Source: Chitinophagales bacterium (GTDB lineage Bacteria > Bacteroidota > Bacteroidia > Chitinophagales > LD1). From it: a stretch of 64,000 nt of DNA. Position numbers and translations under genes: made by a program. Positions 11,881-18,965 of the stretch are shown in pieces (position 1 is the stretch's first letter; every line of letters starts with the position of its first letter). The stretch lies in contig JAEUUZ010000023.1 of NCBI GenBank assembly GCA_016786765.1, forward strand, positions 1 to 64,000, given 5' to 3'. Below the pieces are notes generated by a model. That model saw only the letters and a program-made list of their open reading frames with translations, was not told where the DNA came from and did not search any database.

Positions 11881-13698
11881 ATGAATTTTTTACGCTTTAT
11901 AATATCTGTTTACTTGTTAGCGTTTTTGTTTATTCTTTATTACAAATTCAGATACTGGTTTTACTATAAAATTATCATCTATCATTTGATGGTAATCTCA
12001 TCGGGGATGTTTGTTTTATTGGTGCTCGGTTTGGCAACTACTTATCTTTCTTCCAACAAACTTAAAGCTGTTTTAAATACACTCTATGCTTTGCTTTGGT
12101 CGTTTTTCGTTTTCTTCTTGAGTATCTTTTATTGCATAGTGCTAATGGGAAAGAAACAAGGTGTGGGAGTCTTGCCTTTTAAAGTATTGTATAGCCATTT
12201 AAAAAGCTTTAATGCTGTTTTAGCACTCGCAGGCATTCATCAAAATGTTGCTTGGGTTGTAGGTATTTGCTTATTAATACTTATGCTGGTATTGGCCCGC
12301 TTTATCTATACCCTATTGCCACACAGCAATGCTGCACTGAAAGAATATATACGAAAATCAGTAAGTATATATACTGAAACCAATAACGAGAGCAAAAGAA
12401 CAGACCTCTTATTGTTTGCTGTCTTTTTAGTAGCGCTCGTTGTGATGTATATCCGGGCAACACCATTACAGCGCTTGCAAGGGGCGCACGAACCTATTGC
12501 CACCATGATATTTGGTGAGACACAATACATGGGCATGTTTCATTTTGCCAATTATAAAGAACCTGCTTCTGTTAGAGCGAATTATCCAAAATCATTAGTG
12601 TTTAATAAGAAAAATGTGATTTTGATAATTGTGGATGCCTTGCGGGCAGACGAGTTGAGCCTTTACGGTTATTCCCGTAAAACTTCACCATTCTTACAAC
12701 AACTCTACGATGAAAAGAAATTACAAAAGATAGATTATGCCTTTTCTACCTCTTCTGCTTCGTTTCCAGGTATATTGAGTATTCTGCGTGGAAAGCCTGC
12801 TTACAATTTAGCCTATCACAATTATTCGCTTTCCGAAGTGCTCAAAGATCAGGGCTATCAAGTCAACTACATTCTTTCTGGCGATCATGCCAATTGGTAC
12901 GACATGCAGTATTTTTATGGAAAGGATATCGATTTGTATTTCGATGGAAGATATTCTGATCGCTATGTGTGCGATGATAACTTGTTATTCGAAGGATTGA
13001 GTAAGGTTGAACCATTTAAAGACAAACCTGCATTTTTCTATTTGCATTTAATGTCGGTGCATTATGCCGGAACAAAGCATCCTGAATTTGTTCGGTGGAC
13101 GCCAGCCTCTGTTGAATGGGAGCCTGTCCCATATCGCAACAACTACGATAATGGTGTTCTTGCAGCTGATCATACATTAGAAAAGGTGTTTAAGGAGTTG
13201 AAGGCAAAAGGATATTTAAATAATAGTATTGTTGTGATAACGGCCGATCATGGAGAATCTCTTGGGGAGCGGGGTGTTTATGGGCATATACAAAATGTAT
13301 ATAATGAGGAAATTCATATTCCGATTTTAATTTACGACATCGATACTTCTGTGCATTATGACAAGCGCGACTACGCAGAACAGCCTGACATTGCGCCCAC
13401 AATTGTTGATCGCTTAGGGTTGCCGATACCAAGTACCTGGGAGGGAACATCATTGCTACGTGATTCGTTTCCGGAATTTACGTTTCATTCAGTAAGTAAT
13501 GATTATGCAATGATACACCGTAATGGCAATAAGCTTTTTACCTATTACTTTAATGCGGTGAGTAGAAAAGAAGAGTTGTTTGACATACGGAAAGATGTAC
13601 AAGAACAACACAATTTATTTGCGGAAACAGATGCGGATTATGTAGCGTTATTACGAAAGGAAATGAAGGAATATTTAGCCTTGCATCGAAACTATTGA
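11881..13698 (+). CDS. Membrane-anchored sulfatase-superfamily enzyme (phosphoethanolamine/phosphoglycerol transferase-like)
   Basis: The first 190 or so residues hold about five transmembrane helices, and the remainder is a periplasmic alkaline-phosphatase-superfamily domain. Metal and catalytic signatures are visible: VILIIVDALRADELSLYGY (first metal ligand), a Ser/Thr-rich nucleophile region STSSASFPGILS near residue 288, and VVITADHGESLGE with a following GHI. Classical sulfatases use Cys or Ser within C/S-x-P-x-R; here the context is closer to EptA/LtaS-type transferases, where Thr is the nucleophile. I infer modification of an envelope glycan or lipid. Its last 7 bases overlap the convergent exosortase gene. 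Confidence 0.82.
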   Translation: MNFLRFIISVYLLAFLFILYYKFRYWFYYKIIIYHLMVISSGMFVLLVLGLATTYLSSNKLKAVLNTLYALLWSFFVFFLSIFYCIVLMGKKQGVGVLPFKVLYSHLKSFNAVLALAGIHQNVAWVVGICLLILMLVLARFIYTLLPHSNAALKEYIRKSVSIYTETNNESKRTDLLLFAVFLVALVVMYIRATPLQRLQGAHEPIATMIFGETQYMGMFHFANYKEPASVRANYPKSLVFNKKNVILIIVDALRADELSLYGYSRKTSPFLQQLYDEKKLQKIDYAFSTSSASFPGILSILRGKPAYNLAYHNYSLSEVLKDQGYQVNYILSGDHANWYDMQYFYGKDIDLYFDGRYSDRYVCDDNLLFEGLSKVEPFKDKPAFFYLHLMSVHYAGTKHPEFVRWTPASVEWEPVPYRNNYDNGVLAADHTLEKVFKELKAKGYLNNSIVVITADHGESLGERGVYGHIQNVYNEEIHIPILIYDIDTSVHYDKRDYAEQPDIAPTIVDRLGLPIPSTWEGTSLLRDSFPEFTFHSVSNDYAMIHRNGNKLFTYYFNAVSRKEELFDIRKDVQEQHNLFAETDADYVALLRKEMKEYLALHRNY

Positions 13699-14252
13699 GT
13701 GGCGTAATGGCCTACCTCGGGCTCTTTCATTACTCTATCCATCCACCAGAAAACCATCCATAAAATAGCACCATAAGTTAGGACTAAGAATACGTACCGA
13801 TGATAAACTTGATATGTGGTTTCTGATAATTGAGTCATCAATATGGAGAGGGAAACCAACCGAAAAAGATTAAGTAGAAAAATAACGAAAATGCCTAAGG
13901 GAATAAACCAAGCCTTATCTTTTGCTTTGCCCTTAAACAACAACATCGAAAATCCGAAAACAAACATTGCCGGTATCGCTAAACAATGTTCTGCAACCCA
14001 AGTATAATGTTGTGGAGTAATGTTTATAGTAGTTCCATCGGCATAGGAGGGGAACCCTAACAGCCGAAGTATGTGGCAAGTGAGGTTGGCATAAAGTCCG
14101 CCATAGTCTTCCAGTTTAGCTTGCCAAGCATACATACTTTCAGTAGTTCTCCATAGGTAAGCGTGTAGCGCCTTCCAACAGCCATATACGAAAATCACCT
14201 TTAAAAAAAAAGACACTTCCTCAAAGGAAAACAGATGTTTTCTTGCAGTCAT
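13692..14252 (-). CDS. Small exosortase family protein
   Basis: This 186-residue polytopic protein carries the three exosortase/archaeosortase catalytic residues in order: Cys90 in VAEHCLAIPAM, Arg131 in NLFRLVSL, and His151 in VYHRYVFLVLTY, each at the start of a membrane helix. Exosortases are membrane Cys proteases/transpeptidases that cut C-terminal sorting tails of exported proteins. The Cys motif is EHCLAIP rather than the common CSG form. The gene lies 31 bases downstream of a candidate substrate in the same orientation, so the two are probably one transcript. Family membership is well supported; I cannot name the numbered subclass with certainty. Confidence 0.85.
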   Translation of the reverse strand: MTARKHLFSFEEVSFFLKVIFVYGCWKALHAYLWRTTESMYAWQAKLEDYGGLYANLTCHILRLLGFPSYADGTTINITPQHYTWVAEHCLAIPAMFVFGFSMLLFKGKAKDKAWFIPLGIFVIFLLNLFRLVSLSILMTQLSETTYQVYHRYVFLVLTYGAILWMVFWWMDRVMKEPEVGHYATQ

Positions 14253-14283
14253 AAAACGGGAAAAATAAGAGGACGAGTAAGTG

Positions 14284-14505
14284 TTAAACTTCTTTTTGCG
14301 CAGTCACTTTTTTGTGATTATCTCTTAGTTTCTTCACACCATAACCTGCAATACCACCAACTAAAAGGGTAATGCCTCCATCGATAGGAGCTCCACCACC
14401 GCCACTAGTTGAAGAACCACCGCCAGATAAAGAAGATTGAGCAATTGCTAAAGCCGAAAGGCCAAACGATAAAAGTACCGATAGGGTGTATTTTAAGTTT
14501 TTCAT
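14284..14505 (-). CDS. Mini exosortase substrate with PID-CTERM-like tail
   Basis: Starting at the ATG at 14505, the product has 73 residues. A signal peptide (residues 1-22, ending SALAIAQ) is followed by a Gly/Ser linker, the tripeptide-centred motif APIDGG, a hydrophobic segment ITLLVGGIAGYGV and a basic tail KKLRDNHKK. This motif, helix and basic cluster architecture is that of exosortase sorting tails; the PID form resembles the tail called PID-CTERM in Bacteroidota annotation. The remarkable point is that almost nothing lies between the signal peptide and the tail. If both are removed, only about 18 Gly/Ser-rich residues remain. An ATG 27 bases upstream is less likely because it precedes the signal peptide. 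Confidence 0.8.
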   Translation of the reverse strand: MKNLKYTLSVLLSFGLSALAIAQSSLSGGGSSTSGGGGAPIDGGITLLVGGIAGYGVKKLRDNHKKVTAQKEV

Positions 14506-14610: not shown

Positions 14611-16806
14611 TTATTCCCCAATTTTTGTTACCGGAACTTCCGAAACACCGCTTCCCCAGTTTCTATTAGGTTCGTTTCCCATCTTAAATTCAATTACTCC
14701 TCCATTATTGATATCGCTATATTCTAGGTAACTTTTATTATAGGGCTTCCCATTCAATTGGGCTGCTTGGATATAAGCTCCGCTACCATTGGTTTTCACA
14801 GTGAACTGCTTCTGGTTTTCCAATCGAATGGTTGCAGTCGGAAAAATAGGAGAACCAATAGCATATTGGCTACCACCAGGGCATACAGCATAAAAGCCCA
14901 AAGCGCTCATCACATACCATGCACTCATTTGTCCGCAATCTTCGTTGCCCGCTAAACCATCCGGTGCGGCATGATACATTTCATTCATAATTCTACGCGT
15001 CATGGCTTGTGTTTTCCACGGCTGCCCTGCATAGTTGTATTCATAGGCAATTTGATGACTAGGTTCGTTACCATGCACATATTGTCCAATCATGCCGGTG
15101 ATATCGGGAGGTGAATGTCCGGTAAGTTTCGATGATGTAGTAAATAGGGAATCTAAAAATGCTGCCAGTTTTTCTTTACCTCCTAACAAGTTCATTTGGC
15201 CGCTCAAATCGTGCGGCACATAAAATGAATATTGCCAAGCATTGCCTTCAGTGTAATTGTGATCTACGCGGTAGGGGTCGAAAGGCGACATAAATGCATC
15301 TTGCTTCGGGCGCATAAACCCTGTGGAAGGGTCGAACAGGTTTTTATAATTCAAGGCTCGTTTAGTGAAGTAGAGATAGTCATCTGTTTTGCCCAATTTT
15401 TTTGCCACCATGGCTATACACCAATCGTCATAAGCATATTCTAAAGTGCGCGAAACGTTCTGTCCTTCACCCATAAACTTGATATACCCGTTTTCTTTAT
15501 AACTACGCAAACCGTTTCGATCTTCCATAGCGCTATTTTTCATGGCCGCGTATGCCTTTTCCTGATTGAAGTTTTTTACATCTTTCATGAACGCCTCTGC
15601 AATTACAGGAATGGCATGGTAGCCTATCATACAGTCGGTTTCACAACTTGAAAGCTCCCAAACCGGTAATCTTCCGCCTTGTTCAAATTGCGCAATAAAA
15701 GTATTCACGAAATCGGAAGTGCGATCCTTATCTATCAGGGTCAGCAGCGGATGTAAAGCTCTATACGTATCCCACAACGAAAACACGGTATAGTAATTAA
15801 AAGAAGGAGTTTGATGTATTTGAAAATCACGTCCACGGTAACTTCCATCTACATCCATATACATATTGGGAGAAATCATACAGTGGTATAATGCTGTATA
15901 GAATTTCTGTTTCGACTCTTCGTCAGTAGATTCAACATTAATTTTATTGAGTTCATTATTCCAAAGAAAAGCAGCATTGTTTTTTACTTTTTCAAAATCG
16001 AATTCAGGTTGTTCTTCTGCCAGGTTTTTTCTTGCATTTTCAATACTCACTGCCGATATACCAACCCGCGTATAAATCACTTCTCCTTCTTCGGTATTGA
16101 AACTTACAAAGGCTTTGAGTAAACTGCCTGTATCGTGTTTCAAACTTTCATTCACCACATTCGCTTTTACAATCCCTGATTTTGTAAAAGGTTTCGAAAA
16201 CTGAATTACATAAAAGAGCATTTGATTATTTGCCCATGCTGCACTAATTCGTTTACCGGTAATTTCAGTATTGCCCACAAAATTGATTTCACCTTGTTTA
16301 ACTCTATCGCGATGAGTAAGATCAAGAATAATGTTGGCAGATGTTGATTTTGGAAAGGTGTACTTATGCAATCCAGAGCGGGAAGTAGCAGTAAGTTCTA
16401 CTTTAACTTTTGACTTTTCCAACAAAACACTGTAATAGCCTGCACTTGCCTTTTCGTTTTCTTTTTTGAAGGGAGAGGCGTATTGCTTGTTTCCGAATTT
16501 GGGCTTACCCACCGTTGGCATTAACAAAATATCGCCATAGTCGCTACAACCTGTTCCGCTTAAATGGGTATGAGAGAAACCGTAAATCACATTGTCCGAA
16601 TAATGATATCCCGAACAGCCATCCCAGCCTTTTAATCGTGTATCCGGACTCAACTGTACCATGCCAAAAGGAACCGTTGGGCCGGGAAAAGTATGCCCAT
16701 GTCCGCCTGTTCCAATGAATGGATTGACATACTTTGCATAATCATTTTGCCCGAAGCACAACACCGTAAAAAATAAACAAATACCGAAAAGGAAATGATG
16801 TTTCAT
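14611..16806 (-). CDS. GH92 family alpha-mannosidase, exported
   Basis: The ATG at 16806 gives a clean signal peptide (MKHHFLFGICLFFTVLCFGQ), so the longer upstream start is not used. The mature protein shows glycoside hydrolase family 92 hallmarks: YVNPFIGTGGHGHTFPG near the N terminus, a DGCSGYHYSD stretch, EYNYAGQPWKTQ around the general acid, and GNEDCGQMSAWYV, which carries the base. GH92 enzymes are calcium-dependent exo-alpha-mannosidases acting on N-glycans and mannans in the periplasm or at the surface. No SusC/SusD pair or other glycan gene is adjacent, so this is not a full polysaccharide utilisation locus. A TTG-N20-CATATTTG promoter-like pair, one mismatch from consensus, lies about 20-50 bases upstream. 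Confidence 0.93.
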   Translation of the reverse strand: MKHHFLFGICLFFTVLCFGQNDYAKYVNPFIGTGGHGHTFPGPTVPFGMVQLSPDTRLKGWDGCSGYHYSDNVIYGFSHTHLSGTGCSDYGDILLMPTVGKPKFGNKQYASPFKKENEKASAGYYSVLLEKSKVKVELTATSRSGLHKYTFPKSTSANIILDLTHRDRVKQGEINFVGNTEITGKRISAAWANNQMLFYVIQFSKPFTKSGIVKANVVNESLKHDTGSLLKAFVSFNTEEGEVIYTRVGISAVSIENARKNLAEEQPEFDFEKVKNNAAFLWNNELNKINVESTDEESKQKFYTALYHCMISPNMYMDVDGSYRGRDFQIHQTPSFNYYTVFSLWDTYRALHPLLTLIDKDRTSDFVNTFIAQFEQGGRLPVWELSSCETDCMIGYHAIPVIAEAFMKDVKNFNQEKAYAAMKNSAMEDRNGLRSYKENGYIKFMGEGQNVSRTLEYAYDDWCIAMVAKKLGKTDDYLYFTKRALNYKNLFDPSTGFMRPKQDAFMSPFDPYRVDHNYTEGNAWQYSFYVPHDLSGQMNLLGGKEKLAAFLDSLFTTSSKLTGHSPPDITGMIGQYVHGNEPSHQIAYEYNYAGQPWKTQAMTRRIMNEMYHAAPDGLAGNEDCGQMSAWYVMSALGFYAVCPGGSQYAIGSPIFPTATIRLENQKQFTVKTNGSGAYIQAAQLNGKPYNKSYLEYSDINNGGVIEFKMGNEPNRNWGSGVSEVPVTKIGE

Positions 16807-16952
16807 AATAATGATTGTGTTTGCAAATATGGGAGCGTTCAACCGAACTTACAATTTTTATTGAAAACAAATGGACGTTAACCATTTTGTCGTCTAACAA
16901 TCGATTCCAGTAGGTATTATTATTTATATTGAAGTCAAAACCAACTATTACC

Positions 16953-18965
16953 ATGCGTAAGTCAACAAAGCAATATTCTCTGTTTATGTTTTTGCTCCTC
17001 TCTATGTTTGCAAATTCTTCTTTTGCAAACGATCCGGTATATGAACAGCGCAGAACAGATTACATCAATCATTCGCTAGCCAATTTTTCACGCCATACTA
17101 TTACTATTCAAGCCTATATGGGCGTTCCAGTCGATTCGGCAACCTTATATAAAATGGTTGGAAACATTACCAAAACCGGAACGGTTGACTTCGACATCGT
17201 GCAGCTTGTCCGTATCTTGTGTTTAAGCACAGGGCAATATGATAGCATCATTTTACCGGCAATGGACTCAGTACCTTTTTGGTTAACAAAGGGCGATACT
17301 TTGCATGGGTATTGGTCAGAAAATCATATGATACAATGGATGTCATCCGATTGGTTGTTGCACGAGCGCTACGGAAAGCCAGTCGATGCGAATCTCGATA
17401 ACCGCTTGCGACATTATTTACGACTCAAAGTAAACTATGGGTTTTATGAGTTTTTTAGCTCTGTCTATTCACCCTATTGTTTAAGTGGGTTGTTGAATTT
17501 GGCCGATTTTGCTCAGGATGCAGAAATCAAAACGCTGGCAACATTGGCCTCTCAGCGTTTGTTAAAGGAGCTTTTAATGATTACTAACGATCAAGGTGTT
17601 TTCTTTCCAACAGCCGGCCGAAACTATTTCGGGAAATATGAAAGCGCTTACGATCAAAATCATAACAATCTTATTTATTTATTAACCGGTTTTGGTGATG
17701 CACCAACGTCTGCTTCTCACGCTGGAGGCTTTTTAGCATCATCTTCATTACCCGTTGATTCTATTACTGCTTCTTGGACTTCATCGTTAGATATTACTTA
17801 TCCCATCGGCCACACTTTAGATACTAGTTTTATTTTGAATAGCGGGCAGTCTCAACTCGATCGAACTATGTTCCAATGGAGCTTTGGCGGTTATTTTGAT
17901 CCACGACTTGCAGGAACCACCGGTCAGCTACTCATTGATTCTAACCTGTGGAAGCATGTCGATTTTGAACCCTTTGTTTCTTTTTCGTTATTCGACTCCT
18001 CAACAATTGTTGCTTTAGCACAACAACTTACGGTGGCATCAAAAAGTACAGTAATTTGCAATCAGGATGCCGTAATTTTTAAACATAAATCGATTACACT
18101 CTCCTCGGTTAAAGATTTCTGGAAAGGGAAGTTAGGTTATCAGCAATTCCCTTGCGTTGCTAACATCGGAACTACGGCTGTATTCACAGCTAGCGGCCAG
18201 GTGAAGCAAAATTGGGATGCGCGTTCAGCTTCAAACTTAAACGACAATCTCCCTTATGTTGGACAAGAACACAATGTAGCTTTACTCATGTATCGTCCTG
18301 AATTTAAATCGCCTATTCTTCCATCCAAAAATCCAGAGGTAGCATTACATTTCAATGCTGCTGATTTTGATGAAGTGCTGCAAGACAGTTTGTGGTTATT
18401 AGGCCGCCAAGCAAATCAATACGTTGCGGTGCGTAGACATTGTTTAGACAGTATCAATAATGTTGCCGCATGTTATATGGATAGAGGTCAAGCTTGGGTA
18501 ATTATTGTTGGAGATTCGGCTATGTATGGCACATTTAATCAATTTAAGACTAAAGTAGATCAAGCCACTTTTCAAGAGCGTTGGTATATGGACACGTTGG
18601 CTCAACCGAATCAATATGTGTATTATGCGAAAATCAATTTTGATACCACAACAGTAGAATACGCATGGGGAGTTGATAGTGTAACAACAACCGGCATCAA
18701 AGAAACGGCTTCGAATGATGCGCTTAAAATTTATCCGAATCCTTCATCCGATAAATTGAATATTGATCTTTCTGCTATCCAAAATAAACAAGCAAGTATC
18801 CAAGTCACCAATATGTTTGGTCAAGTTATCTATTCAGAAAAAGGGAGGTCGAATTCGTCCAATAACAAAACAATATACGTTTCTGATTGGCCAAGTGGCA
18901 CTTACACCATTGCTGTAGAAACGGCTGAAAACAAATATGTTAAACAGTTTTTGAAAAATGAATAA
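16953..18965 (+). CDS. T9SS-exported relative of the 8-kb lipoprotein, function unknown
   Basis: The ATG at 16953 gives a signal peptide of about 26 residues. The 670-residue product shares a SENHMIQW motif (near residue 123) and GFYEFFSSVYSPY (near 163) with the lipoprotein at 8040-9689, followed in both by a helix rich in Leu and Ala. The C-terminal 80 residues are a type A T9SS sorting domain (IYPNPSSDKLNI and a KQFLKNE end). This copy is therefore secreted to the surface whereas its relative is lipid-anchored. The fold looks like an all-alpha toroid followed by beta-sheet, as in some polysaccharide lyases; this is inference and no activity is assigned. Confidence 0.85.
   Translation: MRKSTKQYSLFMFLLLSMFANSSFANDPVYEQRRTDYINHSLANFSRHTITIQAYMGVPVDSATLYKMVGNITKTGTVDFDIVQLVRILCLSTGQYDSIILPAMDSVPFWLTKGDTLHGYWSENHMIQWMSSDWLLHERYGKPVDANLDNRLRHYLRLKVNYGFYEFFSSVYSPYCLSGLLNLADFAQDAEIKTLATLASQRLLKELLMITNDQGVFFPTAGRNYFGKYESAYDQNHNNLIYLLTGFGDAPTSASHAGGFLASSSLPVDSITASWTSSLDITYPIGHTLDTSFILNSGQSQLDRTMFQWSFGGYFDPRLAGTTGQLLIDSNLWKHVDFEPFVSFSLFDSSTIVALAQQLTVASKSTVICNQDAVIFKHKSITLSSVKDFWKGKLGYQQFPCVANIGTTAVFTASGQVKQNWDARSASNLNDNLPYVGQEHNVALLMYRPEFKSPILPSKNPEVALHFNAADFDEVLQDSLWLLGRQANQYVAVRRHCLDSINNVAACYMDRGQAWVIIVGDSAMYGTFNQFKTKVDQATFQERWYMDTLAQPNQYVYYAKINFDTTTVEYAWGVDSVTTTGIKETASNDALKIYPNPSSDKLNIDLSAIQNKQASIQVTNMFGQVIYSEKGRSNSSNNKTIYVSDWPSGTYTIAVETAENKYVKQFLKNE

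Follow-up and report, generated by a model that had tools for sequence, protein, structure and literature searches.

A minimal exosortase and PID-CTERM pair in a Chitinophagales bacterium and a class of exosortase-tailed mini-proteins encoded beside T9SS cargo genes in Bacteroidota

Tiny proteins that carry little besides an exosortase sorting tail are usually encoded directly behind T9SS cargo genes in Bacteroidota. This larger finding lies outside the coordinates of the preliminary description from which we started, which had singled out one exosortase and its candidate substrate in the 64,000-nucleotide stretch of Chitinophagales DNA analysed here (the window). For this pair we propose that the exosortase removes the tail of a passenger-less PID-CTERM substrate and leaves a short peptide tag on a membrane lipid or glycan, with the class as a whole mostly serving T9SS surface proteins. 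We give this reading about an even chance.

Results

The window encodes an exosortase and a substrate almost without passenger

The minus strand of the window carries, in order, a GH92 glycosidase gene, the PID gene and the exosortase gene, separated by gaps of about 105 and 31 bp (Table 1). Open reading frames and profile matches agree with the coordinates and features first given for the exosortase and the PID protein. The latter consists of a signal peptide (residues 1-22, MKNLKYTLSVLLSFGLSALAIA), a Gly/Ser-rich middle of 17 residues that begins with Gln (residues 23-39, QSSLSGGGSSTSGGGGA) and a C-terminal part made up of PIDGG, a hydrophobic helix and a basic tail (residues 40-73, PIDGGITLLVGGIAGYGVKKLRDNHKKVTAQKEV). 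Residues 40-63 match the NCBIfam family PID_CTERM (NF046080) with 31.5 bits at a cut-off of 26. The preliminary description had counted about 18 residues left after removal of both ends and had taken the pair for an enzyme and a substrate with almost no passenger; the 17 residues in front of PID in a 73-aa protein bear this out.

Table 1. Genes of the exosortase locus and its borders in the window
Feature	Position	Strand	Basis
PID-CTERM protein, 73 aa; ATG at 14505	14284..14505	(-)	ORF and NCBIfam PID_CTERM match
Exosortase, 186 aa, C90/R131/H151; XrtX-like but below the XrtX cut-off	13692..14252	(-)	Profile matches, alignments, model
GH92 glycosidase; nearest gene upstream of the PID gene, same strand, 105-bp gap	14611..16842	(-)	
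Sulfatase/phosphoethanolamine-transferase-like membrane protein, convergent; downstream boundary, outside the pair	11881..13698	(+)	

The GH92 gene takes the place that at other PID loci belongs to a T9SS cargo gene. We rejected it as the cargo of the pair because a profile search of this upstream neighbour revealed no T9SS tail and because it is not found beside the related pair in another genome (G016, see below). Divergent from the GH92 gene, at 16929-18965(+), lies a gene whose 678-aa product ends in a T9SS-type tail. In EPS-locus exosortase systems EPS genes adjoin the exosortase. In contrast, there are no exopolysaccharide genes beside the window exosortase, whose nearest neighbours are the sulfatase-like protein and GH92, while polysaccharide-type neighbours are present at two other loci (L098 and L165).

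The exosortase is an unnamed relative of XrtX with conserved catalytic residues

The window enzyme scores 51.7 bits against the exosortase/archaeosortase profile TIGR04178 (cut-off 23) and 43.6 bits against Pfam Exosortase_EpsH (PF09721; cut-off 25.7). Its best-scoring named exosortase is exosortase X (XrtX, NF046081) with 75.2 bits at a cut-off of 170, and it likewise stays below the cut-offs of exosortase Y (XrtY, NF046083; 51.9 against 160 bits) and XrtF (TIGR04128; 45.1 against 90 bits). Since it falls far below the XrtX cut-off, the enzyme is, judged by profile score, an unnamed relative of XrtX. A phylogenetic tree places it among the PID-linked exosortases of its family, inside their clade (support 97/97). 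An alignment of 21 relatives shows C90 to be invariant and R131 and H151 to be at least 90% conserved, and all three residues are invariant among nine closer relatives; the Cys/Arg/His set proposed at the outset is thus kept in homologues. A broad exosortase alignment yielded no search pattern; a narrower one did.

An AlphaFold2 model of the enzyme (pLDDT 86, pTM 0.79) contains helices at residues 10-33, 37-64, 93-105, 110-141 and 144-176 and short strands between residues 70 and 85. The predicted enzyme is a helical membrane protein in which a small beta element immediately precedes C90. We found no structurally solved relative: comparison of the model with the PDB by fold gave no match below E 0.001, and the sequence matched no PDB chain.

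The same genome contains further exosortases and PID proteins

The source genome (3.62 Mb, 66 contigs) encodes three exosortases, on the window contig C17 and on contigs C41 and C46, and three PID proteins of 70-77 aa, on C17, C41 and C6. The window itself holds no other PID-type tail, as had been stated, and no larger protein with such a tail turned up in the genome-wide search that the preliminary description had suggested. On C41 the genes form a cassette in the order 2556-aa upstream protein, PID protein (77 aa), 285-aa membrane protein, exosortase and Crp-like regulator. The PID gene on C6 stands by itself, 11 bp behind the gene of a 1968-aa T9SS-tailed protein. On C46 an exosortase gene and a gene for a 285-aa membrane protein lie beside gldB, and no PID gene was found near this exosortase. 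The C46 locus (L069 / L005) also includes inorganic pyrophosphatase-like and thioredoxin-like genes, and genes of these two types lie beside an exosortase in L030 as well.

In many cassettes from the family of the window, the 285-aa multi-helix membrane protein (L006:381-1235(+), L005:2034-2888(-), also in L013, L015, L025 and L027) adjoins the exosortase, often lying between it and the PID gene. This membrane protein has no NCBIfam match and no Pfam match above cut-off, and it is missing from the window pair.

PID-CTERM mini-proteins co-occur with exosortases across Bacteroidota

To place the pair in the phylum, we compared 395 Bacteroidota genomes. PID proteins are found in 62 of them and exosortases in 141. 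All 62 PID-positive genomes encode an exosortase (two lists compared by hand; hypergeometric probability 3.4e-33, kinship between genomes ignored). Most have a single exosortase and one to nine PID genes, making a many-to-one relation the usual one. Among the 107 PID ORFs, the median length is 68 aa. Gln is present at the predicted +1 position after the signal-peptidase site in 104 of 106 unique PID proteins, in agreement with the Q-rule of Bacteroidetes (PMC5837995). The span from this Gln to PID has a median of 12 residues (IQR 11-17) and is rich in Pro, Gly, Gln, Ala and Ser. By these predicted features, a substrate almost without passenger is the normal state of the PID family.

The preliminary description would have called the pair dedicated had the genome held no other PID-type tail. 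The minimal nature of the pair is real. With two additional tiny PID proteins and as many additional exosortases in the genome and passenger-less substrates as the rule in the phylum, it is not unusual for the PID family, and that enzyme and substrate are dedicated is unproven.

We also considered fusions of cargo to a PID tail. Only one large ORF exceeded the cut-off (G223, 965 aa, L167:5118-8012(-)). Its product begins with several helices and ends in a PIDGE tail, and we take it to be of MSEP-CTERM type and not a cargo fusion. It is one of few large proteins with a PID-like end. In relatives, ORFs from about 300 aa upwards gave weak partial PID matches with E above 0.01, which were taken as noise.

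PID genes are preferentially located directly behind T9SS cargo genes

The nearest upstream neighbour of the PID gene carries the T9SS tail TIGR04183 in 77 of 105 cases, the nearest downstream neighbour in 11 of 99. In a second test we used an HMM built from T9SS genes that are not adjacent to a PID gene. This model recognised 80 of 105 neighbours at position -1, divided into 80 of 93 on the same strand and 0 of 12 on the opposite strand, as against 15/103 at +1, 11/88 at -2 and 3/99 at +2. The T9SS-tailed upstream partner encodes a large protein, shares the strand of the PID gene and usually lies no more than about 100 bp from it. The adjacency occurs in 44 of 60 genomes and is strongest in family f44 (54/57). 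The genomes tested contain between 18 and at least 150 T9SS genes; since these make up a few per cent of genes at most, the adjacency to PID genes is far above chance.

The linked upstream proteins examined contain fn3, Ig-like, PKD, lamin-tail, Calx-beta, LamG or Kelch domains. The PID-linked partners are thus adhesin-like, of a surface or adhesin kind and not typical enzymes. Loci of family f44 often show a further arrangement in which behind the single exosortase come a gene for a membrane protein of some 160 aa and, next, a conserved gene of about 420 aa with a terminal TGxTGxNxMDLQV motif (L188, L189, L191, L192, L205 and L206).

The window pair recurs in a related genome without a neighbouring cargo gene

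Comparison of gene pairs in related genomes, proposed in the preliminary description, showed that the pair recurs. Its nearest relative is found in G016, another genome of the same family that is assigned to a different genus. Records related to the window pair come from uncultured Bacteroidetes and Chitinophagales MAGs. The G016 exosortase, a fragment cut by a contig end, is 62-65% identical to the window enzyme. The G016 PID protein likewise has 73 aa, and its signal peptide and PID are separated by 17 residues, 7 of them common to both proteins. At equal lengths, dN between the two PID proteins is 0.10 for the PID tail, 0.59 for the middle and 0.75 for the signal peptide; synonymous sites are saturated, and selection is judged here from amino-acid change only.

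Neither the window pair nor its G016 relative has a T9SS-tailed gene directly upstream of the PID gene or a T9SS cargo gene beside it, whereas a large upstream cargo gene is present in most of their relatives within the same family. Three large upstream proteins in this family (L076, L078 and L083; 789-2402 aa) fall below the T9SS threshold, although their ends look T9SS-like by eye. Further stand-alone pairs occur in G129, G330 and G103, those of G330 and G103 beside polysaccharide-type genes.

Discussion

PID_CTERM, XrtX and XrtY are families curated by NCBI, and the pieces of the system are thus already named. The window pair resembles the PID-CTERM/exosortase X system (NF046080, NF046081) in its substrate tail and departs from it in the low XrtX score of its enzyme. 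We found no mention of PID-CTERM and nothing relevant on XrtX or XrtY in the open-access literature, and no biochemistry for any PID exosortase in the literature searched. The words exosortase and T9SS occur together in PMC7468200, PMC10936215 and PMC12645872; the pairing of T9SS cargo and PID genes is not described in the available portions of the first two.

Three characterised systems offer points of comparison. XrtF of Flavobacterium johnsoniae, also a Bacteroidota exosortase, is needed for biofilm formation and surface colonisation, and its substrates are unknown (PMC10936215); the window enzyme, which scores half the XrtF cut-off, has a likely substrate next to it. Archaeosortase A of Haloferax and its PGF-CTERM substrates share the three-part tail and the active-site Cys, which is modelled to form an acyl-enzyme thought to be resolved by a lipid amine, with transfer to lipid (PMC7157517). 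Its substrates, however, are real proteins such as the S-layer glycoprotein, while the window substrate leaves almost nothing to anchor. The T9SS sortase PorU, also of Bacteroidota, joins the processed C-terminus to an amine-bearing envelope molecule, the linking sugar (PMC7468200). PorU acts on the cargo itself; in the PID class, by contrast, a separate mini-protein, usually encoded as a neighbour of the cargo gene, carries the exosortase tail.

In the mechanism that we propose, the small PID protein would be exported by Sec and held in the inner membrane by its PID helix. The later steps, comprising cleavage, transfer, acceptor and role, we infer as follows. Signal peptidase would expose the Gln, which is probably cyclised to pyroglutamate. 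By analogy to archaeosortase A, Cys90, together with Arg131 and His151, should cut at or near PID, probably through an acyl-enzyme, and a lipid or glycan bearing an amine would probably receive the new C-terminus of the peptide of about 17 residues. What remains would be a flexible Gly/Ser peptide, short and blocked at its N-terminus, that serves as a membrane or surface tag. In the class at large, one exosortase would serve one to several mini-proteins, and since each is usually encoded right after the gene of a T9SS-exported surface protein, the most likely role of the class is in retaining or assembling T9SS cargo at the surface. This link is one of gene adjacency alone, and as the window pair is flanked neither by a cargo gene nor by exopolysaccharide genes, the class-level role may not apply to it. 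The window and G016 pairs, standing without a neighbouring cargo gene, would have to work on cargo whose genes lie elsewhere or on the envelope.

The small size of the remaining peptide and the adjacency of enzyme and substrate genes would also suit a secreted signalling or bacteriocin-like peptide that the exosortase frees from the membrane. However, the segment that would be secreted is of low complexity and drifts between the two relatives, with the sorting tail being the part that is kept, and no receptor, transporter or immunity gene adjoins the window pair. In other families near-identical middles sit behind different cargo genes, which fits a generic tag. We therefore consider a secreted peptide very unlikely. 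A drifting middle of kept length combined with a well-kept tail favours a membrane tag over a secreted peptide, a choice that sequence by itself cannot decide. The near absence of a passenger, together with the 285-aa membrane protein that separates both genes in some cassettes, could instead point to a partner with a single helix that is never cut: it would be no substrate but would stabilise or regulate either the exosortase or the T9SS cargo. Against this stand the full three-part CTERM design of motif, helix and basic end, scoring above the curated PID_CTERM cut-off, and the ratio of one enzyme to as many as nine PID genes in a genome, which resembles an enzyme with its substrates and not a set of subunits, leaving such a partner an unlikely reading.

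Since the large upstream cargo gene that the window and G016 lack is present in most relatives of that family, the pair might be a decaying leftover of a T9SS-cargo cassette after loss of the cargo gene. Yet genomes placed in two genera carry intact copies of the two genes, apart from the contig end in the G016 exosortase. The PID tail has undergone little amino-acid change, the catalytic Cys is in place, and stand-alone pairs occur in three further genomes. Decay thus seems quite unlikely to us.

The usual view of an exosortase tail is that it anchors the protein preceding it. Here a whole PID class has nothing worth anchoring before the tail, and its genes lie directly behind T9SS cargo genes, suggesting an anchor or assembly factor that is supplied in trans. 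It is possible, and we put it forward tentatively, that peptide tags made by the exosortase constitute a separate, cargo-linked component of the T9SS, in which each large surface protein would have its own tiny anchoring or assembling tag and two sorting systems so far regarded as separate would cooperate. If this is true, the window pair would represent a version of the system without a neighbouring cargo gene.
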